Assembly (NCBI RefSeq): GCF_002237645.1 | Contig: NZ_MJUZ01000011.1 | Location: 62,001 to 126,000 of the forward strand | Origin: Desulfovibrio sp. MES5 | GTDB lineage: Bacteria > Desulfobacterota > Desulfovibrionia > Desulfovibrionales > Desulfovibrionaceae | Length of the DNA stretch: 64,000 nt | Direction: 5' to 3' | In this document: one piece after another, positions 209-62,926 of the stretch | Numbering within the stretch: the stretch's first letter is position 1 | Layout of the letters: the number at the start of each line of letters is the position of its first letter | The notes under the pieces: model-generated | What the model was told of the DNA's origin: nothing | Database searches by the model: none | Seen by the model: only the letters and a program-made list of their open reading frames with translations | Position numbers and translations under genes: made by a program

Positions 209-3200
209 CTACGCGCAGTTTTCGATGGTCATCTGCACATACATTGTTTCGCCGCTTTCATTGTTGTATTGCGTGTAGGTTTCGCCATTCAACACCCTGG
301 TTTCAGTGCTGGCTGCCCATCCCGAATCAACCAGGGAGTCACTGGATTCGGTTCGGACGAAGATGTCAGTATTTTCATGGCTGCTGTTCTTCAGATCGAA
401 CAGACGGTCCAGGCTGCTGCTGTGGGCAAACAGGGACTCATCACCCGACCCCACAAAATCAAGCAGGACGCTTTCATAACCGTCGCCCACATCGCCGATA
501 TTGTGCATGGTCTGGTCAAACCCGTCCTGATCGGGATTTTCCGCGCCGTTGAACCGAACAAAGAGCAGGTCATTGTCCCCTGCATGATTATCGTGGGAAC
601 CGAAATCATGCTCATAGGCGTTGGCCACCAGATCCACGTTGGTTCCCGCATCAATAACGCGCACGAGAATGTCGAGATCGCCGACACTGTTCTGGATCAG
701 ATGGTAGGCATCCGACCCCATATCCACGCCTTGCAGGATGATTTCATTGAAGTTGTGAATATTGTTTTCAATGGCGCCGCTTTCAAACCAGCTCTTGTAG
801 TACTGCATGAAGGTTTCGTGGTCGGGCGCTGAAAGGATCAGCAGATTATAGCCCTCGCCGCCGTCAATGGTAAGACCGTTTGACGAGCCGATGTCCACCG
901 CGCCGTTGAGCTTCACAATGTCATCGCCGCCGCCAGTCTGTATGGTGACGTGCCCGGTGCCGTCGGTGACGATGCCGCCGTTGATTTCAACGTAATCGCC
1001 ACTGTCGCCGCGTGAGACAATCTGTACATGACCGCCGCTGATGGCTTCAATGGCTATGCCGTTGGTCATGCTTTCAAGGTCAGTACCGACCTTGGCGGAG
1101 ATGATAACCTTCAGGCCAGAATCCGAAGTCCCGCCCAGTATGGCATTGGAGATCGACACGTTTCCGCCCCCATCCGCATGAATTCCAACGCTGTGGTGAG
1201 CGTCTGCAGCCTCAATAGTGACGTCATTGGAGACGATATGCACCATGCTGCCCTCAACTGCGGCAATGCCGGTACTGCTGGACGTGCTGCCTGCCTCGGG
1301 ATTGCCTGTGGCCTTGACGGTCAGTGAGTCCGCCCGAATATCCACGGTTGAAGTCGCTTGATATAGGTGGCCGTATGTAGTGAATTCAACGCTGTCGGCC
1401 AGAATTCCCGTATTGTGCCACGCGCCTTCGGCTGAAACGGTCAGTTGATTAACGGCATCAAAATCGTATCCTATTGTATACCCAAGCGCTGTTGTGTTCG
1501 GCGCCTTGTTTCCGTACCCATCATCGCGCCACAGATTATCTTCTGAATCAGAAATGATGGCGAACTTACGGCCGCTGGCTTCGATGCCCACACTGCGGCT
1601 GTCAGCAGAAAGACCGGTTCCGGCTTCCACTTTGGCGGTAATTTCCGCCTCCTTGGCTCCAAGCGCCAGCACATAACTGGGGGCATTGTTGAAAAAGAAC
1701 CCTCCGTCATCGTCCGGATAAAAAGCGTAGCCGGCGTAAATGCCTGTGGCTGAAGTTGCGCCGCCATTGTCTACAGCGGCAACATTCAATGTGAACCGCT
1801 CATCCGCGCTGATGACAAAGGTTTCCTTTTTATGCGTGTGGGTGGCATTGATGCCAATGATGTGATTTATGGCTGAACTGCCGTCCGCCCCCACCGTACC
1901 GCTCAGGTTGATGTTCTTCCCGGTAATGGATGATGATGCCATCACTGCGGCATCCGGAACATATTCGTAGGGACCGCCAGCAGGAAAAGCTGTTGCCCCG
2001 TTGTAGTGCACCACAGCAATATTCTCACCATTGGCGTTTACTGAAAGATTCACATCTCCCAGCTCCGCCTTCAGGTCGGCTGTCCCGTTGCTTATTTCCA
2101 GAGCGGAAACCCATTCCTGACCTGAGCCTGTGGACAAATGCTTGCCCTGCATGGCCACATCCACATTGATGTCGCCATTTTTGGAGGCGATATTCACGTC
2201 GCCCAACTGGGCATTAATGCCTGCGGCCTCAAATCCGCCGTCCCGTGCGCCAAGGTTCAGACTGATATTCACATCTTTTTCAGCCTGAATATCCACAATG
2301 GTCTGCTGACCACGGTTTGAGTCAAAATCCAAGCCCTGGGTGAAATAAGGATTCGAGGATTCGTTAAACTTATCCACAAGATATTGCTGGTAAAGGCCAG
2401 CGGTATACTGATATTGCTGATATCTGTCGGCAAAATCTCCTTCGCCGGGCAGATCGTTACCCCCCAGCCCAACACCGGAAAACACGCCGAAAAAGCTGGA
2501 AGAGTCGTCCAGCGAACCGCTCTCGGTCCTGTTATTCACGGTGATGTCAACATTGCCATCAGCAGCGGCTATGGTTACGTGCCCATTATCCGTGGCGGCA
2601 ACCCCGGCAACCGCAGTATTGAAGCCTGCCGTTCCCGTCATATCCGCGCTGACCTGCACATCGCCCGTGGTGGCAGTGATGCTGACATCGGAACTGTCAA
2701 ACTCCCTGCCTACAAAAAAACCGGTAGTCCCGCCGGTCGATCCAAGGGCGCCGCTATTTGTCAATACGCCGCCATCGGCGCGCACGCCAGTGATCACAGC
2801 GCTCTTGTCGGCAGATCCGGCAGCAACGGAAGCAGCGCCCACAGAAACGCCCTGCGCCTCCAAAGAAACATGGCCTCCGCCTGTGGCGTAAGCGCCGCTG
2901 ACATAGGCTGCGCCGTCCGCAGAAAAACTGGGCTGGTCACTCACGGTCTGGATAATCAGATCGCCGCCAGTCACCCGAATTTCGTTCTGGCCCGTTGTGC
3001 CTTGGGCGGCCACTGTTGCCGTTACGTTCGCCGAATACTCGGTGGCATCTGCACCCGTGTAGCCCAGTCCATAGCCAGTGTCGCCAAATCCAGGCAGCGG
3101 CTCATGATGCTCCACACCCGTCAGTACGGCAGTGTTGTCATTATTGCTGATGCGCAAAGAGCTCGTGCCCGACTTCAGGTCGATCTCAAATCTGCTCTGC

Positions 3201-4300
3201 CCGCCGTCAGCGGTGAGCGACGTTTCAGTGAGCTGATAGTGCATTTCGCGGCCACTGCCCGCATCATACGCGCCTTCGCCCGCCGGAGGATGCGGCAGCT
3301 TGATGGCTGCGGCAATATCAGCCGTGCTGGCGTTGGTAAAATGCGCGCCATGGGCGACCTCACCAGCCCAGGTCTGGTCTGTTACCTGCATGTCGGCACT
3401 TTCCGGCGCCTTCCAGGCAATGGATGTCATGTCATTGTGGTCAGTGGTGGAAGCGACCCGCACGCCATGACTGATCTGCTGGCCATTGGCGTCAGTGAAC
3501 ACCAGGGTGTAGTTTTCAGACCCTGTAGCGCCACTGGCAACGTCGGTAAGCGTAAATACAAGTTCACCCTTCACGGGATCATACACAGCCTGATAGCCAT
3601 CAAGATCAAATGTCCAGGTTCCGTCGGGGTTGGCTGTTCCGGTATAGCTTATGCTGCCGTCAAAATTGGTGATGGCAAGGGTTTTGCCCGCCACGTCGTC
3701 ATCGCCAAGGCGCGCCAGATCAAGGTGAACCTCGGGGTTGTCCTGCCCGTCAGCGCCAAGAAGCGCCACGTTGGAGTATTTGAGGGAGTATTGAACAGGA
3801 GGCTGCGGGTTTTCACCGCCGTTGCCGCCGCCGTCGCCGCCAGGGGCAGGAGCCTGTCCCACCGCTGCCGCGAACAGAGAATTGTGCGTGCCAGGGTCGC
3901 TGAAGGCGCTTCCAGAGCCCGCCTCATAAGCTACCCCATCCAGATGATCCACGCCATCGGCAAGTTCGCTACCGCTGAACTCATTATACCGGGCGGAGCG
4001 TTCAGATGCGGGAGCCCCCTCGGCAGGCGCGAGGTCAGGACCAAAGGCGTTGAAAAAATCCGCGCCTGTGACGAGCTGCCCGTCCACTTCAAAATCCGGG
4101 GTATTGTCCTTGGTGTATTCAGTATAAAAATCAGCAATCCTGATGCTTCCGCCATCGTCAAAGTGGAAGACAAGGGCATCATCAGCTTTTTCCAGAGTAA
4201 TCTGATCGGCAGAGAAATCCACGACAAAGGTGGATTCTTTTGCAGAAGGAACTGTTACCTGCTGTCCAGCAGCAGGACGCATAAGAGAAATCGTATTCAT
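209..4300 (-). CDS. Giant acidic surface/secreted protein (type I-secreted adhesin-like)
   Basis: The protein has 1363 residues. I start it at the ATG at 4300, after a purine-rich GGGGGCGAG, rather than further upstream. Residues 1-90 (MNTISLMRP..., then DFSADQITLEKADDALVFHF and a GxxFFNAFGPDL segment) form a module I recognise from the N-termini of large Desulfovibrio adhesins; in LapA/BapA-type proteins such modules act in outer-membrane retention. A Gly/Asn-rich linker follows near 170. The body is a long series of degenerate strands of the form GDVNIxxxNGDINVxV, which suggests a beta-helix or beta-sandwich stalk. Near residues 1118-1150 there are two degenerate RTX-like strings (GGGDDIVKLNG and DGGEGYNLLIL), consistent with type I secretion. 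There is no Sec signal peptide, and the only cysteine I see is the next-to-last residue. No ABC/MFP secretion genes lie in the window. Adhesion is inferred from architecture. Confidence 0.75.
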   Translation of the reverse strand: MNTISLMRPAAGQQVTVPSAKESTFVVDFSADQITLEKADDALVFHFDDGGSIRIADFYTEYTKDNTPDFEVDGQLVTGADFFNAFGPDLAPAEGAPASERSARYNEFSGSELADGVDHLDGVAYEAGSGSAFSDPGTHNSLFAAAVGQAPAPGGDGGGNGGENPQPPVQYSLKYSNVALLGADGQDNPEVHLDLARLGDDDVAGKTLAITNFDGSISYTGTANPDGTWTFDLDGYQAVYDPVKGELVFTLTDVASGATGSENYTLVFTDANGQQISHGVRVASTTDHNDMTSIAWKAPESADMQVTDQTWAGEVAHGAHFTNASTADIAAAIKLPHPPAGEGAYDAGSGREMHYQLTETSLTADGGQSRFEIDLKSGTSSLRISNNDNTAVLTGVEHHEPLPGFGDTGYGLGYTGADATEYSANVTATVAAQGTTGQNEIRVTGGDLIIQTVSDQPSFSADGAAYVSGAYATGGGHVSLEAQGVSVGAASVAAGSADKSAVITGVRADGGVLTNSGALGSTGGTTGFFVGREFDSSDVSITATTGDVQVSADMTGTAGFNTAVAGVAATDNGHVTIAAADGNVDITVNNRTESGSLDDSSSFFGVFSGVGLGGNDLPGEGDFADRYQQYQYTAGLYQQYLVDKFNESSNPYFTQGLDFDSNRGQQTIVDIQAEKDVNISLNLGARDGGFEAAGINAQLGDVNIASKNGDINVDVAMQGKHLSTGSGQEWVSALEISNGTADLKAELGDVNLSVNANGENIAVVHYNGATAFPAGGPYEYVPDAAVMASSSITGKNINLSGTVGADGSSAINHIIGINATHTHKKETFVISADERFTLNVAAVDNGGATSATGIYAGYAFYPDDDGGFFFNNAPSYVLALGAKEAEITAKVEAGTGLSADSRSVGIEASGRKFAIISDSEDNLWRDDGYGNKAPNTTALGYTIGYDFDAVNQLTVSAEGAWHNTGILADSVEFTTYGHLYQATSTVDIRADSLTVKATGNPEAGSTSSSTGIAAVEGSMVHIVSNDVTIEAADAHHSVGIHADGGGNVSISNAILGGTSDSGLKVIISAKVGTDLESMTNGIAIEAISGGHVQIVSRGDSGDYVEINGGIVTDGTGHVTIQTGGGDDIVKLNGAVDIGSSNGLTIDGGEGYNLLILSAPDHETFMQYYKSWFESGAIENNIHNFNEIILQGVDMGSDAYHLIQNSVGDLDILVRVIDAGTNVDLVANAYEHDFGSHDNHAGDNDLLFVRFNGAENPDQDGFDQTMHNIGDVGDGYESVLLDFVGSGDESLFAHSSSLDRLFDLKNSSHENTDIFVRTESSDSLVDSGWAASTETRVLNGETYTQYNNESGETMYVQMTIENCA

Positions 4301-4776
4301 CTCGCCCCCAAAGTAATTTTGGCGTTTGCGACGAATGACACAAAGCACGACTTTCAGACCACGATCTGAAAATTGCGCGCAACCGTCATAGTAATTGGGA
4401 TTATATAGGGAGGCTCGGAAGAAAATCCGAGAATCCGAGGAGACATCAAGTCTCCCCCAGTCAGCAGATCATGAATTACAAGCAGCCAACTGATTAAGCA
4501 AAGTGAAGAGAATATTTTAAGATTCCACTCTTCAGGCAGTGGTAATCAAATTCCAATTGTATACCTTAGTCGTCAAGATAGACATACAAGTGGACCCTGT
4601 CAACAAATAAAAATGATTCTTAATTACGATAAATACCTCATGCACTCATGGGTAGACAACAAAAAAATATAATAATACATATTTTCTGAGCTTATATGAG
4701 CGACATCACTATAGTAAGTGCTGCTTAGCTTATCATTCTCAATAGAATAACAAATATAAATTTATCACGACCTGCG
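4301..4776. other. AT-rich intergenic region
   Basis: About 475 bases between the ligase stop and the adhesin start. It is clearly more AT-rich than its surroundings and should hold the adhesin promoter. I see no convincing ORF, RNA gene or strong hairpin. The base composition would suit a silenced or regulated promoter region, but no operator can be named. Confidence 0.5.
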
Positions 4777-6072
4777 TCATGTCTGCTTAAACCTGTGGCC
4801 TGTGGGCACAGTGCCGACCCTGATCCGCAAAGGGCGCGCATGAGGTGGCAAAACCTCCCCCAGGCGCCGCCGCAGGGCGTCAATGGACAGATCCACTCCT
4901 TCGCCCGGCTGGCATAACAGCTCTACATGCATGCCTGTCAGAGGGTTGGGTGCCCCGTTTGCCTTGGCCTGCCTCACGCCTGGGAAAGAAAGAGCCGCGC
5001 TTTCTACTTCGGCAGGCAGCACCTTGAGCCCCCCGACGTTGATCACATTGTCAGCCCTGCCCACAATCCGCAGCCATGGCCCGTCAAGCTCCACCAGGTC
5101 TTTGGTGTTGAACCAGCCTTCAGCATCAAAGGGCGAAGGCGCATTGAGGTATCCCAGCATCCTGTTTTCGGCTCTGATATGCAGTTCACTGTCGCGGACG
5201 CGGCTTTCCACACCTTCGCCGCCGATCTGTATCCAGAGTTCGTCGCGTTTCCGTGTGCGCACCCGCAGAATGCCCAATTCGGACATGCCATAGGTCTGCC
5301 GCAAGTCCACCTGCGGCAGAAGGTCCGCAATGGTTGACAGCGTATTCTGATCCATCAGCTCGGTGCCGTACGTGACAAGCCGCAACGTCGGCAGATCGGC
5401 TCCGTCCAGAAGACCGCTGTGAACCAGCATGCGCAAAAAAGTTGGCGTCGTGGGCAGCAGCTGGACGCCATGTGCGCGAATGTCGTCTAGTACGGCGGGA
5501 ACGGTGCGTGCCGTCGGGCGCACCACAAGACCATTATTATACAGCATATGAAACAGCGTGTTCAGGCCGCCGATATGGTCAAAGAGCAAAAATCCCAGAG
5601 TGGTCCATGCCGGACGCGGCGTGGCAAAGCGGGCAAGAAATTTATCAAAGTCGTGCACAATGGCCTTGGGACTGCCGGTGCTGCCAGAAGAAAAAAGAAT
5701 CAGTCCGGCGTGGCCCTGGGCGCGCAGCTGGTCCAGCAAAGGATGGGCGGCCTGCCGCTCTTGCCGCCGCACAAGCTTGCCGTCGGCCATGACAACGTCG
5801 ACATGGCCGGCTGCAAAACAGTATTCGTGCTGCGCGCGGTTTGCCGCCACCAGCGGCATGATGATGGCCTTCTTGTCCACAAGGGTCAGCAGGTTCCGTA
5901 TGCCTGACGCGTCAAAGTCCCCCACAAGGGCCACCACATCACCGGGGGCAACGTCGGCACACTGGTCAGACGCCTGCGCCATATCGGCAAGGCTGAGACT
6001 TTCCCCCGGCCCGAGCAGGAAAGGACGGCGGGGATCAGCGCTGCGCTGACAGAGATCGCGATACAGGCTCAC
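4777..6072 (-). CDS. AMP-dependent acyl ligase (ANL superfamily)
   Basis: The enzyme is predicted to activate a carboxylic acid as an acyl-adenylate and pass it to CoA or an acyl carrier protein. ANL motifs are complete: P-loop SSGSTGSPK near residue 130, YGMSE near 263, TKD near 324, GRADNVINVGG near 340-350, and the C-terminal domain ending in HRFKQT, whose Lys is at the place of the catalytic A10 lysine. At about 431 residues it is shorter than typical acyl-CoA synthetases (500-650), like small stand-alone ligases of specialised pathways. I choose the GTG at 6072, whose GTGA overlaps the TGA of the upstream SDR gene; an ATG at 6093 is the alternative. It is third in the leftward ACP-SDR-ligase operon, so it probably loads the adjacent ACP. 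The acid is unknown. Confidence 0.85.
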   Translation of the reverse strand: MSLYRDLCQRSADPRRPFLLGPGESLSLADMAQASDQCADVAPGDVVALVGDFDASGIRNLLTLVDKKAIIMPLVAANRAQHEYCFAAGHVDVVMADGKLVRRQERQAAHPLLDQLRAQGHAGLILFSSGSTGSPKAIVHDFDKFLARFATPRPAWTTLGFLLFDHIGGLNTLFHMLYNNGLVVRPTARTVPAVLDDIRAHGVQLLPTTPTFLRMLVHSGLLDGADLPTLRLVTYGTELMDQNTLSTIADLLPQVDLRQTYGMSELGILRVRTRKRDELWIQIGGEGVESRVRDSELHIRAENRMLGYLNAPSPFDAEGWFNTKDLVELDGPWLRIVGRADNVINVGGLKVLPAEVESAALSFPGVRQAKANGAPNPLTGMHVELLCQPGEGVDLSIDALRRRLGEVLPPHARPLRIRVGTVPTGHRFKQT

Positions 6073-6755
6073 ACGCCACCCACATGAAGGCATTGGCCGG
6101 AGATCATGCCGCTGGCGTCATCCAGCAGCCAGCGGACTGTCTGCCAGACGTCGTCAAGGGCGCACTGGCGGCGAATAACCTGCCGTTCCACCAGGGCGTC
6201 GAGCTTGCCCTGAGGGACTTTCGCCGTGAGTTGCGTGGGGATGGGGCCGGGAGCCACCGCATTGACCGTGACCTCCCAGGAGGACATTTCACGCGAAAAA
6301 GCCCGCGTGAACCCTTCCACCCCCGCCTTGGCGGCCACATAGGCGCTCTCGCCCTCAAGTCCCAAAGCCACGGCAATGGATGAAAAATTTATTATCCTGC
6401 CGCCCTTGCGGCGCGCCAGCAAACGCCCGGCCTGCGCCGAGCAGTACATGGTTCCGAGCAGATTGACTTCCACAATACGGCGCATGGTCTCTGGCGGCGT
6501 TGTCACGGTAAGGTTCATCGACGCAATGCCCGCGGCATTGATGACGCCCCACAGCGGCACATGCCGCAATCTGGCAAAACAGTCAGCCACCTGATCCGCC
6601 ATGGCCACATCGCAGGCCAGCGTTTCGCACGGCATATCAGCGGGGGGCGTTCGGCAAAGCCCTGTCACGCTATACCCCTCCTCCATGGCGCGCATGGCCA
6701 GATGCCGCCCCACGCCGCCGCTTATGCCTGTTATGACCACATGACGGTCTGCCAT
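6069..6755 (-). CDS. Short-chain dehydrogenase/reductase (FabG-like)
   Basis: A 228-residue classical SDR. The N-terminal cofactor motif is GISGGVG, followed by NAAG near residue 82, a catalytic Ser in NFSSIA and the YxxxK pair in YVAAK. Charge after the second strand (LCRTPP) suggests NADP(H). The start is the ATG at 6755, one base after the ACP stop and behind a strong GGAGGGG; an in-frame ATG 18 bases earlier is less likely. Tight coupling to the ACP and the ligase makes reduction of a 3-oxoacyl-ACP (or oxidation of a hydroxyacyl group) the likely reaction. It might instead act on a sugar or free acid; substrate not visible. Confidence 0.85.
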   Translation of the reverse strand: MADRHVVITGISGGVGRHLAMRAMEEGYSVTGLCRTPPADMPCETLACDVAMADQVADCFARLRHVPLWGVINAAGIASMNLTVTTPPETMRRIVEVNLLGTMYCSAQAGRLLARRKGGRIINFSSIAVALGLEGESAYVAAKAGVEGFTRAFSREMSSWEVTVNAVAPGPIPTQLTAKVPQGKLDALVERQVIRRQCALDDVWQTVRWLLDDASGMISGQCLHVGGV

Positions 6756-6756
6756 G

Positions 6757-7056
6757 TCACCCCTCCTGCCCAAGCGTCGGCAAGGAGCATATGTATTCTG
6801 CCAGACTGCCTATGGTCTGGTACGGGCTGTTTTTTGCCGACATCATACTGTCATGAGTCCATGTAAAGCGCCTATTATTGTCCGTGCAATAGTCTTCCAG
6901 CGCCAGCATGAGTTCCACCAGCATCAACGACGAAAGCACGCCCCCCTTGCCCATAAGGGGGGTTGTTTCGTCAATCTGCGGGGCAGAGCCCATTTCTTCG
7001 GACATGATTCGCAATATGGCAGCATGGATAAAATCTAAAACGTCTTTCTTCATCAT
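6757..7056 (-). CDS. Acyl carrier protein, copy 1
   Basis: A 99-residue acidic helical protein. The segment PLMGKGGVLSSLMLVELM aligns with the phosphopantetheine site of ACPs; the usual Asp before the serine is replaced by Ser (SSL instead of DSL), but the attachment Ser is present. The C-terminal PYQTIGSLAEYI matches PYRTMQSLAEYL in the second ACP of this locus, so the two are paralogues. The start is the ATG at 7056 behind AGAGAG; the upstream TTG at 7062 is unlikely. It heads the leftward operon, directly upstream of the SDR and the ligase. Confidence 0.75.
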   Translation of the reverse strand: MMKKDVLDFIHAAILRIMSEEMGSAPQIDETTPLMGKGGVLSSLMLVELMLALEDYCTDNNRRFTWTHDSMMSAKNSPYQTIGSLAEYICSLPTLGQEG

Positions 7057-7320
7057 TTGCAATAACTCTCTATTTAATCATACTATAAAGAGAGAAATGT
7101 GGCACGGGCAGCAAATACGTTATCCATGCTCTTCCCTTCGTAAAAAAAATATGCTCATCTGACAGAAGCCCTTGTTCATACAGTAAACCACAATAAAAGT
7201 TGTCATTTACAAATACTGACAAACAGAGCCCCACTGAAAATAAATTAAAAAAGACATTCCTTCAAATGGCAAGCGTGGAGCCGCCATACGGCCTGCCCCC
7301 GCAGCCCAGAGGAAAGAAAT
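7057..7320. promoter_or_regulatory. Divergent promoter region of the acyl-transfer cluster
   Basis: The 264-bp gap between the two divergent operons is AT-rich and must hold both promoters. I could not pick a convincing -35/-10 pair or an operator by eye. The rightward gene has a clear AGAGGAAAG ribosome-binding site just before 7321. Confidence 0.4.
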
Positions 7321-8505
7321 ATGACCAATACACGCTTTACGCACGCGGCCCTTGCCGCCATAAGCTCCGTAGTGGCCGGGCATGCGGTGTCCGTTGAAGA
7401 CGAGCTTGAGTATTTTTCAGACAATCCCGCACAGATGAAGCGCTTTACCGATGTCAGCGGACTGCATACACGCCGTAAAGCCGATGATGACGTGACGGCG
7501 TCAGACATGTGCGCTCAGGCAGCGCGCGCCCTTCTGCGCCATACCGACACCCCTTCAAGCGATATCGGCGCTGTCTTTTTTGTCAGCCATAGTGCGGACT
7601 ACCTTTTGCCCGCAAGCGCCGCCATTTTGCAACACAGTCTGGGTCTGCCGCGTAACTGCGTGGCCATGGATATGAATGCCGGATGCGCAGGCTTTATAAA
7701 CGCCCTGTGGATGGCGGCAAGCCTTGTGGAGTCGCGCGCCTGCAAAAACGTGCTTCTTCTGGCTGGCGACACTCCGGGGCGCTTTCAGCCTGCCGCTAAC
7801 AGGGTGGTAGGCCCCATCTTTGGCGATGCGGGAACAGCGGCGCTGGTTTCCTATAGCGAATCCCCCTCGCCCATGAGCTTTGCCTTCGGCACAGACGGCA
7901 GCAAGCATGAGGCCCTGGTTATTCCCGGCGGCGGAAGCCGCATACCCCAATGCGCCTCTGAAGGAGCGGACAGTCCGTTCAATCAGACCGTATCCGACGA
8001 TAAGGGCAATCCCTGGACTCTTGGCGGGCAGTGCTCCATCTGGATGGACCCTATGGGCATATATACCTTCAGCACCTCTGTCGTCCCCCCGCATATAAAG
8101 GAACACCTGCAGCATGAAGGTCTTGAGCCGCAAAACGTGGACAGACTGTTTCTGCATCAGGCAAACAAGATTATTGTCGATTCCATTGCCAAAAAAGTTG
8201 GCATTGGCAAAGAAAATGTCCCCACTGAGTCTCTGAGTCTCTACGGCAACCTGGGGGTCGCGTCCGTACCCGTTCTTATCTGCGCCCACTATGCCAAAAG
8301 CAGCTCCGGCCCTGCGGCCAAAGGACACGCAAATACTGTGCTTTGTTCGTTCGGCGCCGGTCTCTCGTGGGGTTCGGTGATCCTTTCCCTTGATAAAACA
8401 ACGATTTTACCGGTATGCGATTACATAAAAGAAGAAAAAGCAGCCTCGCGAGCCGAGCGCATCGCCTACTGGCACAAAAAATTTTCAGGGCACGCCCCCA
8501 AGTGA
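7321..8505 (+). CDS. 3-oxoacyl-ACP synthase III-type condensing enzyme
   Basis: A 394-residue thiolase-fold KAS III. The triad is visible: Cys122 in MNAGCAGF, His279 in FLHQANK and Asn310 in YGNLGVAS. The C-terminal FGAGLSWGSVIL is typical of FabH. The family condenses an acyl-CoA starter with malonyl-ACP. The protein is about 70 residues longer than housekeeping FabH, with a C-terminal basic tail, which fits a specialised paralogue. It begins the rightward operon and is followed 10 bases later by the aminotransferase-GNAT fusion and then an ACP. With the divergent SDR it could make a short 3-hydroxyacyl-ACP. Similar KAS III/ACP/SDR sets occur in islands that acylate amino sugars on glycosylated flagellin, so that is one plausible role. 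Confidence 0.88.
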   Translation: MTNTRFTHAALAAISSVVAGHAVSVEDELEYFSDNPAQMKRFTDVSGLHTRRKADDDVTASDMCAQAARALLRHTDTPSSDIGAVFFVSHSADYLLPASAAILQHSLGLPRNCVAMDMNAGCAGFINALWMAASLVESRACKNVLLLAGDTPGRFQPAANRVVGPIFGDAGTAALVSYSESPSPMSFAFGTDGSKHEALVIPGGGSRIPQCASEGADSPFNQTVSDDKGNPWTLGGQCSIWMDPMGIYTFSTSVVPPHIKEHLQHEGLEPQNVDRLFLHQANKIIVDSIAKKVGIGKENVPTESLSLYGNLGVASVPVLICAHYAKSSSGPAAKGHANTVLCSFGAGLSWGSVILSLDKTTILPVCDYIKEEKAASRAERIAYWHKKFSGHAPK

Positions 8506-8515
8506 GGGTAAATAT

Positions 8516-10309
8516 ATGATTATCGACCCCATTCTCCCACAGGGCCCTTCCATAACGCATCACGAGATCGAACACGTAACTTCAGCCTGCGCAACCGGCT
8601 GGAATATGAAATCCGGCAGCTATATCAACGCGTTCAGGCAAACAATGGCCCAGATCACGGGGCAAAAATACTCGCTGGCGCTTTCAAGCTGTACAGGGGC
8701 TATGCATATTGCCCTTACCGCCCTTGGCCTCAAGCAGGGCGATGAGGTGCTGGTGCCGGATCTGGCGGATTTCGCCGTAGCGGCCTGCGTGACGTACTGC
8801 GGGGCAAGCCCGGTTTTTTGCGATGTCGACCCCGACACCCTGTGCCTTTCAGCCGAGGACGCCGCCCGCAAGATCACGCCCAACACCAGAGGCCTGATTG
8901 CGGTACATCTTTACGGGCAGCCGTGCCGCATGACGCCATTGATGGAGCTTGCTGCCCAAAACGGCCTGTTTGTCCTTGAAGACGCCACACAGGGCATCGG
9001 AAGCAGCTATAATGGCCGCCCGGCAGGATCATTCGGGCACTTCGCCGCATTCAGCTTCAAGGGCAACAAATCGGTTGTCGCCGGTGAAGGCGGCATGCTG
9101 CTCACGTCAGATGACCTGCTTTTTGACCGCGCGGCACGACTGGCAGCGGGGGGTCGCTCGCCCAACAATCCCTTTGCCTATGATCTTGTAGGGTTCAACT
9201 ACTCCATCTCGGCGCTTCAGGCGGCTTTGGGTTTTGCGCAGACCAGCCGTTTGAACGACCTTATGGCCAAGAAAAAACTGATACATTCGTGGTACAGGGA
9301 ACGCCTGGCCGACACGCCGGGCGTACGGCTGAACCCCGTGCCGCAAAACAGCGAGCCCGGCTTTCTGACCAACCTTCTTTTTATTGAAGACGAGAATATC
9401 CAGCGCAGCAAAATGATCATGCAACTGCACGCAAGCAGCATCCTGGCCGAGCCAGTGTATTTTCCCATCTCCTCGATGCCCATGTTCAAGCAGGCGCAAA
9501 CGCCCGCCGCCTATGCCGCGTCGGTCAAAACCATCTGCCTGCCCAGCGGCCATAACCGTACGGAAGAAGAAGTGGACTACATTTGCGCGGCCATACGGCA
9601 GCTGATTGAGGAGCCCGGGCGCGACAGGGCTGAAGTGCCGCTGTCCGGCTGGCTCAAGTACAAATCAGACACTCTTGAGTTCTTTGCAAAAGCCAAAAAG
9701 CATGGCCTTGCCATTCCCTTTGAGCACGGCGGCCATTCCTACGCGCTTAAAGCCGTAACAGCGGCTGATATTCAAGATGCGGAACTGGTCAAAAAATTCG
9801 CTTGCTGGCGTGAAGCAAGCTCCATTGCCTTTCTTACACGCACTGCCGTGACCGAAGAAAGCATGCGCCATATCTTGAATAATTACGTCACATCCGTGCG
9901 TGATTACATTCTGTTTTTTATCGCTGATGGCGAACATCTCTACGGCCAGGTAGGCCTTAATGATTTTGCCTTTCACAAAAATGAATGCTGCATTGACGGA
10001 CTTTACATTGAAAACCACGCCCCAAAAGGGCTTGCGGCAGCCGCCTGTGAAACCATATTCACATGGGCGGAAAAATCGCTTAATATCATTAATATTTTCA
10101 ATCATGTGGTGGCGAGCAATAAAAAAGTGCGCCTTCTCGCAGCGGCCCAAGGCTTCAGGGAGATAAGCCGCACCGCCCTGTACAGGGAAGAAATCCCCGG
10201 CGGTGAAATGTTTCGCCCTATGTACATGCCTGGGCATGATACTCCTGACGAGTACTTGCTTATTTGCAAAAAAACGCTCGGCGGCATCGAAACGCCTGGC
10301 GCTGAGTAA
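8516..10309 (+). CDS. DegT/DnrJ aminotransferase fused to a C-terminal GNAT-like acyltransferase
   Basis: The 597-residue protein has two parts. Residues 1-372 are a DegT/DnrJ/EryC1/StrS PLP aminotransferase: SSCTGAMHIAL near 57-67 for phosphate binding, Asp156 in LEDATQG and catalytic Lys185 in FSFKGNK before GEGGM. This family usually aminates keto groups of nucleotide-activated sugars. After a linker, residues about 400-597 look like a GNAT N-acyltransferase (YGQVGLNDF..., then RLLAAAQGFREI near the end). Such a fusion would aminate a substrate and then acylate the new amine. Position between KAS III and an ACP gene suggests the acyl donor is an acyl-ACP or acyl-CoA made here. Ribosome-binding site GAGGG precedes the ATG. 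The GNAT assignment is less sure than the aminotransferase. Confidence 0.85.
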   Translation: MIIDPILPQGPSITHHEIEHVTSACATGWNMKSGSYINAFRQTMAQITGQKYSLALSSCTGAMHIALTALGLKQGDEVLVPDLADFAVAACVTYCGASPVFCDVDPDTLCLSAEDAARKITPNTRGLIAVHLYGQPCRMTPLMELAAQNGLFVLEDATQGIGSSYNGRPAGSFGHFAAFSFKGNKSVVAGEGGMLLTSDDLLFDRAARLAAGGRSPNNPFAYDLVGFNYSISALQAALGFAQTSRLNDLMAKKKLIHSWYRERLADTPGVRLNPVPQNSEPGFLTNLLFIEDENIQRSKMIMQLHASSILAEPVYFPISSMPMFKQAQTPAAYAASVKTICLPSGHNRTEEEVDYICAAIRQLIEEPGRDRAEVPLSGWLKYKSDTLEFFAKAKKHGLAIPFEHGGHSYALKAVTAADIQDAELVKKFACWREASSIAFLTRTAVTEESMRHILNNYVTSVRDYILFFIADGEHLYGQVGLNDFAFHKNECCIDGLYIENHAPKGLAAAACETIFTWAEKSLNIINIFNHVVASNKKVRLLAAAQGFREISRTALYREEIPGGEMFRPMYMPGHDTPDEYLLICKKTLGGIETPGAE

Positions 10310-10384
10310 AATTCAGGCTCTTTACGTCTTTTGGTTTCGTTGTTGACGCCCACAGCCAACACACTGAAAAAAGGATGTTTTATT

Positions 10385-10690
10385 ATGATCAGCCAGGATG
10401 AAATCCATAAGATACTTGCAGAAGCCCTTGAAATTACACAGGAAGGAAGCGAGATTACCCATAAATACAGCCCTTCCCTGTCGTTAATGGGCGTTGACGG
10501 CATACTGGATTCACTTGATACGATGCTTTTTTTGGATAATATTGATGATCTCCTTTCGAGAAAAATGGGAAAAAGTGTTGCCGTGGCTATGGATTCAGCC
10601 TTTGAACACGAAGAAAACCCATACCGGACCATGCAGTCGCTGGCCGAATATCTGACGTCGGTCCTGAATGGTGAAGGTGGGCAAGAATAA
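10385..10690 (+). CDS. Acyl carrier protein, copy 2
   Basis: A 101-residue acidic ACP. The canonical pantetheine motif GILDSLDTMLFL has the attachment Ser in DSL. The C-terminal part is closely similar to the divergently transcribed ACP. The ATG at 10385 follows AAAAAAGGATG; an upstream in-frame ATG at 10331 lacks a good site. It is the third gene of the rightward operon and the likely carrier for the KAS III product. Confidence 0.85.
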   Translation: MISQDEIHKILAEALEITQEGSEITHKYSPSLSLMGVDGILDSLDTMLFLDNIDDLLSRKMGKSVAVAMDSAFEHEENPYRTMQSLAEYLTSVLNGEGGQE

Positions 10691-10775
10691 GCTTTCCTGC
10701 GTATCATCCGGTCCTGGCATACCAGCAGCATGCTTGATGCCGCCTTTGCGCTGCTCTACGGAACTCTAAAACGGG

Positions 10776-11696
10776 ATGATGTTAGCCATGCAACCTCAAG
10801 AAGACGCCCGCGCGTGCCTGCAAGAACTTCAGCAAAAGCCGCCGATGCTCCCCTTTGAGCCGGACCTGCTCCCCATGCTGTTTGCAGCGACGAAAAACAG
10901 CTCGGCCACTCCGGCCAAGGGACTGGTGACGCTTATCGAGAGGAGCCAAAAACTGACAACCCGGGTTCTCGCCACTGCCAACTCCGCAGCCTACGGGCAG
11001 GAGTTCAAGGTATCCACCCTCCACCGCGCCATCAATATCTTGGGCTTAAAAACCATAAGAACGCTGGTGGTTATGGTGGGGATGGCAGCCGTGATCAAAG
11101 GGGCAAATCTGCCCAAAAGCTTTGACATCAAAGAGCTGTGGAAGCACGAATTAGCAACCGCCGCCATTGCCAAGATTCTGGCTGCAGAGCTGGGGGGGCT
11201 TGACGGCGTGTGGGGGCCTTCCGCTGATGAAAAAAACCGTCTGCTCATGGACCCGGACGAAGCCTATATCGCCGGTCTGCTCCACGACATAGGCAAGGTT
11301 TTTTTTGCCGCCTGCCGTCCGGAACTCTGGGAAACCATGACAAACACATGCAAGGAATGCTGCCGCCAGTATTTTGAGGTCGAGAACAACTACTGGAGCA
11401 TGGACCACGCGCTTATCGGTGCGGTGGTTCTGTACCAGTGGAAGCTGCCCCTTATACTGACCGAGCCCATCAACTGGCACCACTCCCCCGATATGGCGCC
11501 AACGTGCAAGCTTGAAGCGCAGCTTCTTGCCGCTGCCAACATTATCGCCCGCAACCCGCCTGACGCTGACGGAAGGCTCTGTGAAAAAGCCGCCGCGTTT
11601 TTGCCGGAAAACTGCGACCAAACCGCCATCGCTGCGGCAATAGCGCAATATTTTTCCACCACTGAAACTGAAACTTTCTCTACCTTTGATGCATAG
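10776..11696 (+). CDS. HDOD-domain signalling protein
   Basis: A 306-residue single-domain HDOD protein. The start resembles others of the family (LPMLFAATKN...LVTLIERSQKLTTRVLATANSA), and AINILGLKTIRTLVV is the typical core helix. An HD-like LLHDIGK appears near residue 171. HDOD proteins are non-enzymatic signalling or scaffold proteins, often linked to chemotaxis or c-di-GMP circuits. The start is uncertain: ATGs at 10776, 10779 and 10788 are all close. It lies 85 bases after ACP2 and 43 bases before the GGDEF/EAL gene, so probably co-transcribed. Confidence 0.8.
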   Translation: MMLAMQPQEDARACLQELQQKPPMLPFEPDLLPMLFAATKNSSATPAKGLVTLIERSQKLTTRVLATANSAAYGQEFKVSTLHRAINILGLKTIRTLVVMVGMAAVIKGANLPKSFDIKELWKHELATAAIAKILAAELGGLDGVWGPSADEKNRLLMDPDEAYIAGLLHDIGKVFFAACRPELWETMTNTCKECCRQYFEVENNYWSMDHALIGAVVLYQWKLPLILTEPINWHHSPDMAPTCKLEAQLLAAANIIARNPPDADGRLCEKAAAFLPENCDQTAIAAAIAQYFSTTETETFSTFDA

Positions 11697-11739
11697 CCTG
11701 CGCGCCGCATAATCAGCAAGTACATTTCCTGAGGCAAGG

Positions 11740-13416
11740 ATGCATATAGAGCGTGGACTGGATAAATTACTGCACGGTCAGTATGATGAGGCTCTGGAGG
11801 CATTCTGCCAGTCCAGCACCTCAACTCAAGCTGAAAAGCTTTGCCAGATAACCAAGGCCCTCGCGGAAGCAAAAAGCTACGCGGCGGAGCTTGCAAAGGG
11901 GAATCTTTCTGTCTCCCCGCCTGGGCCTTCAAACCATTTTGCCGCCGAACTCAAGACGCTGCACGTGAACCTCAAGCGTCTGGCACGGCAGATGCTGATG
12001 GCGACTGCGGGCTACCCCGCGTTGCCCGGCGATTATATGGGTGATCTGTCCGAAGGGCTGGAATTTGTCATAAGCCAGGCGGCCACCCTCAAAGAGCAGG
12101 CCGAGTACGACAAAAGCCATGATGTCGAAACCGGTCTTCTCAACCGCAAGTCTTTTGTGCGTTCGGTTCGCGATATTCTACATGAGCAGCCCGACAGCAT
12201 CGGTGTGCTTTTCTGCTGCGAGCTGGACAACATCAAGTATATCAATGACGCTTACGGGTATGACAATGGCGACCTCTACCTGAACAAGGTCGCGGAGGTG
12301 CTGGAGGCATGCACCTTTGGCACAAGTCTGCTTGCGCGACTGGCTGGCAACGAGTTTGCCGTCTACGCGCACGGCTTCAACAACGAATCTGACGCCTTCG
12401 GCTTTGCGCAAGGCTGCCTGAAAACCCTGCTCAACACCCGCGTCATGCTGCGCGACGACGAAGTGTGGATTCGCGCCTCAAGCGGCGCCGCCGTCTATCC
12501 CCACGACGCTCTTGAAAGCGACATCCTCATGAACTGCGCCTACCATGCGCAGCTGGAGGTCAAAAGCCGCAACAGGGGAACCCTCATGCGGTTCTGCCCC
12601 GAAATATACCGCACAAAGGCCAATGTTCTTGGCAGGCAGGAAAAGCTGAATGAACTTCTTGACGGCAAGATGCTTCGCTTTGCCTTTCAGCCCATTGTGA
12701 GCCTGCATGATGCCCGCATCATCGGCTATGAGGCGCTGATGCGCCCGACAATGCCCGATTTTTCCAGCCCGCTGGACATACTCGCGCTGGCCGAAAACCA
12801 GTCCAAGCTCCTCCAGCTTGAAAAAATCACGTTTGAATTGATTTTTGAATGGGTCTACAGCCACCGACGCCTGCTTGCGGAAAGAAAGATTTTTTTCAAC
12901 ACCATCTCCACGCACTTTTTCAATCCGGCGAAACTGCGTGCCATTCACCCGAAATATAAAGCCATATGTAAAAACATGGTCTTTGAAATCCTTGAAACAG
13001 CCACGGTGGAAAGCTCGCTGGCGCAGCAGGTCAAAGACTTTCGTACAGAGATGTCCACCCAGGTGGCCCTGGACGATTTTGGCTGCGGGCATTCAAACAT
13101 TCTCAGGCTTATCAACCTTTCACCCGACATTTTAAAAATCGACCGTTTTTTTATCAAATCCATCCACAACACGTCCGCGTCGCAGAAAGACCTTCTCTCA
13201 GGTCTGCTGAACTACTGCCGCTCAAAAGGAATCCTGAGCCTTGCCGAAGGCGTGGAAACCTCTGATGAGCTTGCCAGCGTCATGCGCATGGGCTTTGACT
13301 ATGTTCAGGGCTACTATCTTGGCCGCCCCGAGATGCACCTCAATGAGATTGACAACAAAATCCAGGACGAAATAATGGATTTTCGCGAAAGGTTTTCGCC
13401 GTTACGCCGTACCTGA
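11740..13416 (+). CDS. GGDEF/EAL protein, probable c-di-GMP phosphodiesterase
   Basis: The 558-residue cytosolic protein has an N-terminal helical region (1-120), a GGDEF domain (about 120-285) and an EAL domain (about 300-545). The GGDEF signature is degenerate: LAGNEF at 201-206, so synthesis of c-di-GMP is unlikely, although GTP sensing is possible. The EAL site looks intact: EAL at 331-333, the Asn in FFNTIS, the Glu in VFEILET, DDFG, LKID, AEGVET and QGYYLGRP. It is therefore predicted to hydrolyse c-di-GMP. No transmembrane or obvious sensor domain is seen. It is last in the operon, followed at once by a strong terminator. Confidence 0.88.
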   Translation: MHIERGLDKLLHGQYDEALEAFCQSSTSTQAEKLCQITKALAEAKSYAAELAKGNLSVSPPGPSNHFAAELKTLHVNLKRLARQMLMATAGYPALPGDYMGDLSEGLEFVISQAATLKEQAEYDKSHDVETGLLNRKSFVRSVRDILHEQPDSIGVLFCCELDNIKYINDAYGYDNGDLYLNKVAEVLEACTFGTSLLARLAGNEFAVYAHGFNNESDAFGFAQGCLKTLLNTRVMLRDDEVWIRASSGAAVYPHDALESDILMNCAYHAQLEVKSRNRGTLMRFCPEIYRTKANVLGRQEKLNELLDGKMLRFAFQPIVSLHDARIIGYEALMRPTMPDFSSPLDILALAENQSKLLQLEKITFELIFEWVYSHRRLLAERKIFFNTISTHFFNPAKLRAIHPKYKAICKNMVFEILETATVESSLAQQVKDFRTEMSTQVALDDFGCGHSNILRLINLSPDILKIDRFFIKSIHNTSASQKDLLSGLLNYCRSKGILSLAEGVETSDELASVMRMGFDYVQGYYLGRPEMHLNEIDNKIQDEIMDFRERFSPLRRT

Positions 13417-13457: not shown

Positions 13458-13491
13458 AAGGCCCGGAACGCCAGCGCGTTCCGGGCCTTTT
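13458..13491 (+). terminator. Intrinsic terminator after the GGDEF/EAL gene
   Basis: A 13-bp stem AAGGCCCGGAACG with its complement closes a 6-nt loop and is followed by TTTT. It lies 42 bases after the stop codon and ends the rightward cluster. Confidence 0.85.
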
Positions 13492-13776: not shown

Positions 13777-14601
13777 TCAGATGATCCCCAATCGCAAGGC
13801 GGCATCTTCAAGGCATGTTTGCGCATAGGGCATCTTTTCTTTGACGTACGCCGCATACTGCGTCTTAACCGAAGCCGTAATCTCAGGCGACGCCACTGCG
13901 GGCGAACCGCTTGAAAATGGCGGAGCCGGATCGTACTCCAGAACCAGCTGCTTCGCTGCGGCAACCTCCTGCCCGGCAATAAGCGAAAGCAGCGTCAATC
14001 CAAAGTCTATGCCCGACGTGACCCCTGCCCCGGTAACGCGGTTGCGGTCATGAACAACGCGCGCGTTTTCAGGAACAGCCCCAAAGTAAGCCAGCTGATC
14101 CAAAAGCGTCCAATGGGTCGTGGCCCTGTACCCCTTGAGCAGTCCGGCAGCACCGAGCAGAAACGATCCGGTGCAGACGCTTGTCACCCATGTGGCGTTG
14201 CGCCCCACAGCGGCCAGCCAGTCCACCATGTCCTTCTGCATCATCTGTTTGTAAGGGTCGCTTGTGCCAGGCACGCACAGAATGTCTGTTTCGCTGATGT
14301 CGGCAAACGTGGCTGTGGGCACCAGGCGCAGTTCCTTGTCGGCCTGGCTTTCGGCCCGGACCGGGTCTTTGCTTCGCCAGACATAATCAACCCTGAATTG
14401 CGGCCCGGCAAGCACTTCTGCCGGGCCGATCAGATCCAGCGCGGTCATTCCGTCATAAAGCACAAAAGATATGTGCGGGGGCCGCGCCACTGCCTGAGAG
14501 TCAGCGAAAAGCTGGCCCGCTTCACCTTGTGCACCAGAAGCTCCCTGCAGGGACGCTCCTGCATCAGGGGTTGTGGAAAGGGGAACATCGTTTTTTGACA
14601 T
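13777..14601 (-). CDS. DJ-1/PfpI family protein, isonitrile hydratase-like
   Basis: A 274-residue DJ-1/PfpI-fold protein. The nucleophile-elbow cysteine is Cys143 in TSVCTGSFLLGAAGLLKG, followed by RATTHW, and an acidic residue lies in MTALDL near 56. This pattern is that of cyclohexyl-isocyanide hydratases (InhA), which hydrate isonitriles to N-substituted formamides. Residues 1-40 are an Ala/Gly-rich extension without a clear signal peptide. The start is the ATG at 14601 behind AAAGGGAG, not the longer form from 14643. It is divergent from a GlxA-type regulator sharing the same domain, its likely controller. The real substrate is unknown. Confidence 0.8.
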   Translation of the reverse strand: MSKNDVPLSTTPDAGASLQGASGAQGEAGQLFADSQAVARPPHISFVLYDGMTALDLIGPAEVLAGPQFRVDYVWRSKDPVRAESQADKELRLVPTATFADISETDILCVPGTSDPYKQMMQKDMVDWLAAVGRNATWVTSVCTGSFLLGAAGLLKGYRATTHWTLLDQLAYFGAVPENARVVHDRNRVTGAGVTSGIDFGLTLLSLIAGQEVAAAKQLVLEYDPAPPFSSGSPAVASPEITASVKTQYAAYVKEKMPYAQTCLEDAALRLGII

Positions 14602-14782
14602 GGGTACTCCCTTTGATTGAGTAATGATTAAAGAAAATACCACAGATACTGGCGTGAAAAAGCTCCTGTCGTGCCAATCAGCAACGGGATATTGCCATCG
14701 TCCGCCTCGCAGGTTGGCTTATCCCCGCTTCTGGAGTACAGAAACAACGCTTTTACACATTGCGCACCCCAGAGGCATTGCC

Positions 14783-15790
14783 ATGAGACCACATTTCTCA
14801 AAACATCACATAGGTATCCTTGCCCTTGACGGTTTTGTTCCTTTTGATTGCAGCATTCCTTACGAAATGTTTTCACTGGCAACAGCGGCAGACGGAAAAG
14901 AAGCCTACGAGATATCGTTTGTTGGAGACAAGGAAGCCGTTGCCTCCGGACGCTTCAGCATCACAAGAATACTGCCGCTTTCTTCCATGCAGGATATGGA
15001 CACCATTATTATTCCAGGCATTGTTCAGCCTTTTTCCTTCAATAATCCTTCTGTGCTTGAGGCCCTCGGCCATGCGTGCTCGGCAGGCATAAGGCTGGCG
15101 TCCATCTGCACCGGGGCGTGCATTCTGGCGGCGGCGGGCCTGCTGGACGGCATGACCGCGACAACGCATTGGGCGCTTGTGAAAGAGCTTGCCGCCAGGT
15201 ACCCGCAGGTAAACGTTGAACCAGACATCCTGTTTTGCGATAATGGTCAGATACTTACCTCAGCCGGTCTTTCATCCGGCATCGATCTTTGTCTGCATAT
15301 GGTGCGGAAGGATCTGGGCGCCACCGCCGCAGAAAGGCTTGCCACATTGTTTGTTGTGCCCATTGAAAGAGACGGCGGGCACCGGCAATTCATACGGCAT
15401 GCCGCCCCGGATTCCGACGGCAGCCTGTCAGCCCTCTTGTTGTGGCTGCAGGAAAACATGCACCGTAATCTGACCGTGCAGCAGATATGCAAAGAGGCGC
15501 ATATGAGCGCAAGAACCCTGAACCGGAAATTTCAGGAGCAGACAGGCCTGCCGCCCATGGTCTGGCTGACCAGGGCGCGCGTCCGGCGCTCGCAAGTGCT
15601 TCTTGAATCAAGCGCATTGCCTGTGGAGGAGATTGCTTCCATCACGGGATTTGGCTCAGCAACGTCATTTAGAGAGCACTTTCGCCGCATCGTGGGTACA
15701 AGCCCTACAGCCTGGAGAAAAACGCATGCCATTTGCTCCGCAGAGCCCCGCCGCCCCCTTGCGCACAGCGCAACGCTGCCGCCGCTGTAG
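14783..15790 (+). CDS. GlxA-type transcriptional regulator (DJ-1/PfpI domain plus AraC HTH)
   Basis: A 335-residue regulator. Residues 1-190 form a DJ-1/PfpI domain with SICTGACILAAAGLLDG (Cys109) and ATTHW, clearly related to the divergent enzyme. Residues about 220-320 hold an AraC-type double helix-turn-helix (LTVQQICKEAHMSARTLNRKF and VEEIASITGFGSATSFREHF). GlxA proteins use the PfpI domain as a ligand sensor. I choose the ATG at 14783 after AGAGGC; the longer form from 14624 would overlap the promoter region. It likely regulates the divergent gene through the 181-bp gap between them. Confidence 0.85.
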   Translation: MRPHFSKHHIGILALDGFVPFDCSIPYEMFSLATAADGKEAYEISFVGDKEAVASGRFSITRILPLSSMQDMDTIIIPGIVQPFSFNNPSVLEALGHACSAGIRLASICTGACILAAAGLLDGMTATTHWALVKELAARYPQVNVEPDILFCDNGQILTSAGLSSGIDLCLHMVRKDLGATAAERLATLFVVPIERDGGHRQFIRHAAPDSDGSLSALLLWLQENMHRNLTVQQICKEAHMSARTLNRKFQEQTGLPPMVWLTRARVRRSQVLLESSALPVEEIASITGFGSATSFREHFRRIVGTSPTAWRKTHAICSAEPRRPLAHSATLPPL

Positions 15791-29212: not shown

Positions 29213-29438
29213 GCATGTGGGCGCATGGTTGATTGATTTTTTTTTAGATGCGCACAAAGCCTGCTGACGTAATTGCCAATAGTTATTCAGGCAAAACCCT
29301 GCGACTACATGCCGGGAGCGGACAGCCTGAGGGTACGCCGAGAGCAGGCCGCAAAAAACTGAATATCGGACGAACGCGCACTGACCGCGTCGTACAAATA
29401 TGAAGGACGGGCCGCATCTGGCCCAAACGGGAGTTTCT
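29213..29438. other. Intergenic leader before formate dehydrogenase
   Basis: A 226-bp gap with a short T8 run at 29238-29245 and GC-rich stretches. I see no clear terminator or promoter. It could carry a second promoter for the dehydrogenase gene. Confidence 0.35.
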
Positions 29439-61945: not shown

Positions 61946-62926
61946 CTAAACCACGCTGGACTTGCGCGCCTGTGGATTCAGGCAGTCTTGAGGCATCCTG
62001 CCGTCCAGAGCGTCAAATATTTTTCGCGCCGAGGACTCGCCCATATCCACATGTGAGTCGATGGTGGCAACCCCCCGGTGCGGCGTCATGAGCACGTTGT
62101 TCATGGTCCGCAACTCCGGGTGCGCATGCGGTTCATGCTCAATAACATCCAGCCCGGCTCCGGCAATGCGGCCCTCTTTCAGGGCGACCACCAGCGCTTC
62201 TTCGTCCACTACCGGACCGCGCGCGGTATTGATCAAGATGGCGTTGGGGCGCATGAGCGACAGCTCCGGCGCACTGATGTAGTGCCGCGTTGCGTCGGTC
62301 AGGGGAATGTGCAGGCTTACAAAATCAGAAGAAGCCAGCAATTCTTCCTTGCTCAGGTACTGCGCGCCAGTAGCTGCTTCAAATACTTCATTTCTGTGGC
62401 GGGCCGTATAGCTGAGGCGCATGTTGAAACCCTGCGCGCGCTTTGCCACAGCAAGGGCAATGCGCCCGCTGCCCACAATGCCCAGGTTCTTGCCGCTCAC
62501 CCGCAGGCCCATGTGAATCGTGACGCCCCAAGGCGCCACGTCATTACGTACAGTCATATCCCCATCACGCAGCCTGCGGGCCACGCCAAGCATCAACGCC
62601 CAGGCGAGATCAGCCGTATCGGTTGTGACGGAGTCAGGATTGTGCGTCACCCATATGCCAAGGCGCGTGGCTTCTGCCACCGGGATATGGTCATAGCCGA
62701 CGCCATAGCTGGAAATGATTTTACATGTGGGGGCAAGGGCTTCCATAACGTCAGAGTCAAGATGCTGCAATGTGGCGATAACAGCGTCTACCCCTCGCAC
62801 GGCATCAATCAGGGCTTCTTTGGACAATCCCCCAGTTGGTCCCACATCCACCTGACAACGTGAACGCAGAAGATTCAGGGCTTCAGGCAATACACTACGG
62901 GTTACAAATACGCGAGGTTGAGTCAT
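61946..62926 (-). CDS. D-isomer 2-hydroxyacid dehydrogenase
   Basis: A 326-residue NAD(P)-dependent enzyme. The cofactor motif is GIVGSGRIALAVA near 149-161. Catalytic residues are the Arg in INTARGPVVDE near 233-243, the Glu in GLDVIEHEPH and the His in MTPHRGVAT. Glyoxylate/hydroxypyruvate reductase or a related 2-ketoacid reductase is likely; phosphoglycerate dehydrogenase is less so because there is no ACT domain. The ATG at 62926 follows GGAG; the form from 62941 is less likely. It is monocistronic. Confidence 0.85.
   Translation of the reverse strand: MTQPRVFVTRSVLPEALNLLRSRCQVDVGPTGGLSKEALIDAVRGVDAVIATLQHLDSDVMEALAPTCKIISSYGVGYDHIPVAEATRLGIWVTHNPDSVTTDTADLAWALMLGVARRLRDGDMTVRNDVAPWGVTIHMGLRVSGKNLGIVGSGRIALAVAKRAQGFNMRLSYTARHRNEVFEAATGAQYLSKEELLASSDFVSLHIPLTDATRHYISAPELSLMRPNAILINTARGPVVDEEALVVALKEGRIAGAGLDVIEHEPHAHPELRTMNNVLMTPHRGVATIDSHVDMGESSARKIFDALDGRMPQDCLNPQARKSSVV

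Follow-up and report, generated by a model that had tools for sequence, protein, structure and literature searches.

A stretch of 64,000 nucleotides from Desulfovibrio sp. MES5 (the window; positions 62,001 to 126,000 of contig NZ_MJUZ01000011.1, here G000:C11:62001-126000, in a genome of 3.47 Mb) contains genes for acyl carrier proteins (ACPs), for acyl-ACP enzymes and for a DegT-GNAT fusion protein. The original prediction had described these genes as a divergent acyl-ACP/aminotransferase cluster adjoining cyclic di-GMP (c-di-GMP) genes. The true unit is larger than that cluster: it is an acyl-ACP module bound to a giant surface-type protein (SP). We tentatively propose, at a little below even chances by our own estimate, that a module resembling the viosamine island has been recruited to decorate SP by way of an amine that carries the acyl group and is most likely an amino sugar. 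All genes named at the outset were confirmed, with their positions and domains, from open reading frames (ORFs) and Pfam/NCBIfam searches. SP and the acyl genes of the window are as follows.

209..4348, minus strand: SP, surface-type protein of 1379 aa, an ORF with a likely ATG start at 4300
4777..6093, minus strand: ANL, acyl-adenylating ligase of 438 aa (PF00501, 6.8e-22), motifs conserved
6069..6773, minus strand: SDR, FabG-like 3-oxoacyl-ACP reductase of 234 aa (PF13561, 8.5e-39; FabG-type NCBIfam models under their cut-offs)
6757..7062, minus strand: ACP1, stand-alone ACP of 101 aa (PF00550, 0.0034, under cut-off), carrier serine in GVLSSL
7321..8505, plus strand: KASIII (FabH-like), 394 aa (PF08541/PF08545), Cys-His-Asn triad conserved
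8516..9619, plus strand: DegT/DnrJ domain of the fusion (PF01041, 3.9e-93), with the pyridoxal 5'-phosphate (PLP) lysine Lys185 and Asp156 present
9620..10309, plus strand: GNAT N-acyltransferase domain of the fusion (PF13420/PF13302, weak, under cut-off)
10385..10690, plus strand: ACP2, second ACP (no Pfam match), carrier serine in GILDSL; its ORF was listed from TTG at 10331, and the ATG at 10385 is the likelier start

On the minus strand, the order in the window lineage is ACP1, SDR, ANL, SP and KASIII-B, the last being a second KASIII gene (L113 8679-9848, minus strand) that lies just left of the window, downstream of SP. The plus strand of the window reads KASIII, DegT-GNAT, ACP2, HDOD and GGDEF-EAL. 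SP and the second KASIII, both overlooked in the original prediction, are neighbours held in common with distant relatives; the c-di-GMP genes are not.

Co-occurrence was assessed across 288 genomes of the family. Twelve of them have the GNAT domain, 11 have SP and 10 have both (Fisher 7.8e-16, uncorrected for kinship). Acyl genes adjoined SP in every one of the 11 SP genomes, and 12 of the 13 SP copies had acyl-gene neighbours. The layout differed between lineages (the gene content of loci L104, L105 and L107 is based on tblastn). G088, G085 and G086 carry, on one strand, SP, ACP, ACP, SDR, ANL, KASIII, KASIII, DegT-GNAT and ACP. In G125 a KASIII leads into two tandem SPs, and the second of these is followed by DegT-GNAT, ANL, ACP, ACP, SDR, DegT-GNAT and DegT-GNAT. 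The SP of G118 precedes genes for a glyoxalase-like protein, a KASIII and an FkbH-type protein, and KASIII, DegT-GNAT and ACP come from the other side. The genome with SP and without GNAT, G119, shows the row SP, ACP, ACP, SDR, ANL and then MurJ. Two genomes have GNAT without SP: the fusion of G124 is close to the end of its contig, and in G081 the locus (L115, G081:C226) is decaying, with KASIII-B, SDR, ACP1 and KASIII remaining, SP and DegT gone, ANL reduced to about 21 codons, the GNAT match fragmentary and KASIII split into two ORFs. Across the 11 SP genomes, the flanks fall into at least six different gene sets, including SpoT-like (by eye) with HDOD-EAL, DksA/RecN-like, integrase with HemC, TGT, MurJ and MsrAB. 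Because the flanks differ between lineages, the linkage between SP and the acyl genes outlives its surroundings. We do not claim a single transcript for SP and the acyl genes, since two of three SP-to-ACP gaps look terminator-like by eye (G088 and G119).

The acyl-ACP enzymes have kept their active sites. The Cys-His-Asn triad of KASIII was conserved in 16 of 16 copies (the G081 copy being interrupted by a stop), the serine and YxxxK of SDR in 10 of 10, the carrier serine of the ACPs in 18 of 18, and the P-loop of ANL in all nine readable copies, a tenth being cut by a contig end. ACP1 scored 18 bits with the PP-binding model against a Pfam cut-off of 20.8; both it and ACP2 can be aligned to 16 further ACPs from loci of this kind, and both retain the carrier serine. 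Among solved structures, the window KASIII is nearest to FabH-type synthases and the window ANL to chlorobenzoate CoA ligase (1.4e-16). An FkbH-type protein (TIGR01686, 6.7e-80) is present in G118, the genome in which the stretch read showed no ANL.

From this gene set we infer the order of the reactions, the nature of the acyl group, its acceptor and SP as the target. The ANL would load a carboxylic acid onto an ACP, KASIII would extend and SDR would reduce the ACP-bound acyl group, and the GNAT domain would transfer the finished group from the ACP to an amine. For the window lineage, we think it probable that the DegT half continues to act as an aminotransferase and makes that amine, most likely a nucleotide-linked 4-amino-4,6-dideoxy sugar (dTDP or GDP) that would end on SP. 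In other lineages, DegT without its PLP residues probably only binds or presents the acceptor.

The pathway first predicted, from acyl-ACP through an aminotransferase to an N-acyltransferase, fits the genes present, and its chemistry is plausible for the window copy: the window DegT has the PLP lysine and aspartate and, among solved structures, is nearest to perosamine synthetase (PDB, 5.7e-71). Amination does not hold as a general rule, since the PLP lysine is gone in 10 of the 15 DegT copies. It is kept in the window, G093, G092, G045 and G118 and is replaced by C, S, G, A or Y elsewhere; N or E takes the place of the aspartate in five of the 15, including G118 (Lys present, Asp to Asn), and both residues are present in the window DegT and three close copies. 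The lysine was kept in all six outgroup DegT domains and in two other DegT proteins of the window genome. Nor does amination extend to G119 (82% complete), which has SP, ACP, ACP, SDR and ANL, with no DegT-GNAT on the contig and no GNAT match genome-wide. As a separate observation, three DegT-GNAT fusions are present in G125 and three, on two contigs, in G130, none with the PLP lysine (loci L105 7579-16376, L108 and L114 for the two genomes). Judged by these residues, the aminotransferase half looks dead in several lineages. In the tree, lysine-less copies form two well-supported clades, {G125, G130, G124} and {G085, G086, G088}, and two separate losses would be only the simplest reading, as the deeper branching order is weakly supported (0.61-0.63).

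The GNAT half is conserved across the fusion copies, and its family profile matches diamine/spermidine N-acetyltransferases (best 7.7e-08). This conserved core, beside a lysine-less DegT retained as an open frame in 10 copies, would also suit direct protein acylation, in which the acyl group is moved by the GNAT half straight from the ACP to lysines of SP or to its N-terminus and the DegT half serves as a protein-binding scaffold. A precedent exists in CdiA, a giant surface protein given 3-hydroxydecanoate by the RTX-type acyltransferase CdiC (PMC8510554). The likeness to CdiC/CdiA and to RTX toxin acyltransferases is the acyl group on a giant exported protein, proposed in our case; the differences are an acyltransferase family unrelated by Pfam and the private acyl-ACP gene set (PMC8510554). 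We consider direct acylation improbable, given that the GNAT profile is nearest to small-amine acetyltransferases, that the window copy keeps both PLP residues and that SP is lysine-poor (1.6-2.9%). Moreover, no HlyC-family domain was found among the Pfam matches of the fusion at E 0.01, and HlyC-type acylation by homology was rejected on this ground. A bolder proposal, which we regard as rather unlikely, is a family of surface-protein tagging systems, each building its own acyl group on private carriers for the GNAT domain to fix to a giant type I-secreted adhesin, with the aminotransferase half converted, perhaps repeatedly, from a PLP enzyme to a non-catalytic platform for the acceptor.

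Among the closest known arrangements is the viosamine island of Pseudomonas syringae (vioA, vioS, vioB, vioR and acp, with vioT and vioM), which makes the N-acylated viosamine of flagellin and has a relative in P. aeruginosa PAK; as here, a DegT-type aminotransferase, a KASIII, a 3-oxoacyl-ACP reductase, an ACP and an acyltransferase are grouped (PMC3927599). The island has a glycosyltransferase (VioT) and a methyltransferase, neither of which was seen here among the genes scanned, and a flagellin target. In the present loci, unlike the island, the aminotransferase and acyltransferase are fused, at least two ACPs are present, an ANL is added and a giant adhesin-like protein adjoins (PMC3927599). 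Enterobacterial flagellin glycosylation islands likewise bring together ACP, FabG, acyl ligase and DegT genes in one island type, but are flagellin islands with glycosyltransferases (PMC4875605). Among the genes scanned beside our loci, no flagellar genes were seen except FlgK/FlgL-like ORFs on the G124 contig (by eye). To our knowledge, the perosamine-tetronate set of Vibrio cholerae O1 contains neither a KASIII nor an adhesin. That set resembles ours in that a 4-amino sugar is N-acylated with a short hydroxy acid, and differs from it in sitting in an O-antigen locus with transport genes (PMC3441752).

These likenesses raise the possibility of ordinary glycan decoration, in which an N-acylated 4-amino sugar is used by glycosyltransferases encoded elsewhere for lipopolysaccharide, capsule or flagellin, and SP is merely a co-inherited surface gene. 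The gene set resembles the viosamine island and the flagellin islands with fatty-acid genes (PMC3927599, PMC4875605), and the window DegT is like perosamine synthetase. Enzymes for a sugar supply are also encoded elsewhere in these genomes: at E 1e-60, 12 of the 13 have a match to dTDP-glucose 4,6-dehydratase (over cut-off in 11) and 8 have one to Gmd. In G125, about 9 kb separate the KASIII gene from a nucleotidyltransferase gene, and Gmd shares the contig of the G124 fusion with the FlgK/FlgL-like ORFs. Gmd as a universal sugar source was rejected, as G045 (99% complete) keeps the DegT lysine and has no Gmd match at E 1e-60. Against ordinary glycan decoration, no glycosyltransferase was seen in the loci as scanned, the neighbour that stays constant across surroundings is SP and not glycan genes, and the DegT lysine is lost in 10 of 15 copies. 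The statement that no glycosyltransferase or nucleotide-sugar gene lies near the cluster is true of the neighbour genes scanned, some ORFs being unscanned. The original prediction would have settled on ordinary decoration if homologous clusters always sat inside glycan loci; among the genes scanned, none was seen inside such a locus, so the loci do not point that way. We rate ordinary glycan decoration as unlikely, while giving it real weight beside our proposal that the module decorates SP.

The features of SP suggest a large secreted adhesin. By eye, it has a BapA/Dvh-like N-terminal module, a beta-repeat body, one RTX-like motif and a type I-secretion-like C-terminus. The window SP has no Pfam match, and its NCBIfam BapA prefix match (0.058) is weak and under cut-off; Pfam BapA_N matched a G125 SP over its cut-off (2.7e-08), whereas other SPs matched it under cut-off (G118, 0.034) or gave no match. 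Twelve of 13 SP sequences contain the RTX-like GGxGx[DN] motif, the window SP having it once. Ten SP N-termini align and have in common a segment like ADFFxAFxPDL, after which the position of the LapG site reads PAAG or TAAG (four copies), TASG (two), PAAA (one) or PAEG (three, including the window SP). Dvh/Lap adhesins are cut between the two alanines of [T/A/P]AAG, a site preceded by a targeting helix in which hydrophobic residues are conserved (PMC13090378). SP is like the Dvh/Lap adhesins of sulfate reducers in its ADFFxAF segment and in the [P/T]AAG-type site of four of the 10 copies; it is unlike them in that no Dvh-like genes were noticed in the locus, that the window site is PAEG and that an acyl gene set adjoins (PMC13090378). 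The window SP may be resistant to LapG-type cleavage, because its PAEG deviates from the [T/A/P]AAG rule. Of 19 genomes tested, some of them lacking SP, all 19 have a LapG-type protease (Peptidase_C93) and 18 have an LssB-type ATPase of the type I secretion system (T1SS) over cut-off; the window genome has both. Two LssB-type ATPases over cut-off are in fact encoded there, on G000:C16 and G000:C9.

Several observations weigh against the decoration of SP by this module. The T1SS and LapG-type genes are equally common in genomes without SP, and so indicate capability only. AlphaFold models of two pieces of the window SP, made without an alignment, were poor (mean predicted local distance difference test scores of 52 and 43). 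One SP copy, the second of G088 (contig C34), has no acyl gene within the 14 kb read. The acyl gene set itself is variable: apart from the one before the first SP, no KASIII is present between or after the SPs of G125, none was found on the short contigs of G130, and the 19.9 kb of G118 that were read showed neither ANL nor SDR. This variation makes a single product unlikely. Finally, a gene for attaching a sugar to protein was not seen in these loci and was not sought elsewhere.

The plus-strand row continues beyond ACP2 as follows.

10776..11696, plus strand: HDOD protein (PF08668, 4.4e-46), a lineage-specific neighbour
11740..13416, plus strand: GGDEF-EAL protein (PF00563, 1e-41; PF00990, 1.2e-20), a lineage-specific neighbour
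13458..13489, plus strand: terminator-like hairpin of 14 pairs, 3' of the EAL gene

The GGDEF-EAL protein is likely a phosphodiesterase, as its EAL motif is intact and its GGDEF is degenerate (AGNEF). The original prediction had considered a small diffusible N-acyl compound or signal, here tied to c-di-GMP via the adjoining EAL gene. The intact EAL motif would suit such a signal, as would the lack of visible glycan genes nearby and the outcome of a plus-strand terminator scan, which found no site between ACP2 and HDOD, a weak site of five pairs at the HDOD end and the strong 14-pair site after EAL. HDOD-EAL relatives beside polyketide synthase/nonribosomal peptide synthetase (PKS/NRPS)-like genes in three other genomes can be counted on the same side. 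We nonetheless think a diffusible signal very improbable. HDOD-EAL were seen to adjoin the cluster only in the window genome and three close relatives (G092, G093 and G045; in G081 the EAL gene is on a separate contig), neither a transporter nor a receptor was noticed among the shared neighbours, and the linkage to SP is left unexplained. Positive evidence for a diffusible product was not found; the partner that stays constant is the giant surface protein. The link between cluster and c-di-GMP is thus a matter of neighbourhood within one lineage, and adjacency in four close genomes does not imply a functional tie. Because this adjacency was limited to those four genomes, c-di-GMP was rejected as a general organising theme.

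Relatives of the HDOD-EAL pair, 52-58% identical, stand beside large PKS/NRPS-like genes (by eye) in G077, G038 and G058 (L170 8594-11210, L171 8953-11569, L172 8330-10946 and L181); the PKS/NRPS-like ORF of L181 has 5190 aa and reaches the end of the stretch. This hints at a recurrence of the pair next to loci that build acyl groups. The neighbours of six EAL relatives at 44-48% were mixed. Further along the window, divergent DJ-1/PfpI-like and AraC-type regulator-like genes (13777-15790, by eye) lie between EAL and the SpoT-like gene; the pair is also in G045 and is absent between EAL and SpoT in G093. At 29400-32189 (plus strand), an in-frame TGA (30558-30560) interrupts a gene for a molybdopterin/Fe-S oxidoreductase; HAPTVAGLA follows it, with the hairpin-like GTGGCCGGTCTGGCCAC close downstream, and the gene is probably that of a selenocysteine formate dehydrogenase.

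A known family beyond the Desulfovibrionaceae was sought and rejected. A contig scan with the fusion, which may omit near relatives of the window, returned 71 loci, all matching the DegT part except L034 (31-552). Any other query of the set matched at E 1e-6 in five of them, three with only the SpoT-like gene and two with ANL and/or SDR relatives; GNAT, KASIII and SP were found in none of the 71 at that threshold. The genomes of L034 and L098 gave no GNAT match, a weak negative from a search without a positive control. Class-wide, a GNAT profile search of 348 genomes yielded two weak additional matches (G056 and G168). In the titles and abstract openings of the open literature, such a gene set is undescribed among the matches listed, subscription papers being mostly outside this scope.

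Taken together, these data suggest a chemical tag that is custom-made by the bacterium for SP or for the surrounding surface. If so, decoration with acyl groups or acyl-amino sugars, known from flagellin and O-antigen, would extend to large type I-secreted adhesins, and the makers of such decoration would be recognisable by their linkage to an adhesin gene. The loss of the PLP lysine in the fused enzyme, beside copies that bear it, gives a natural progression from enzyme to pseudoenzyme, open to testing in vitro.

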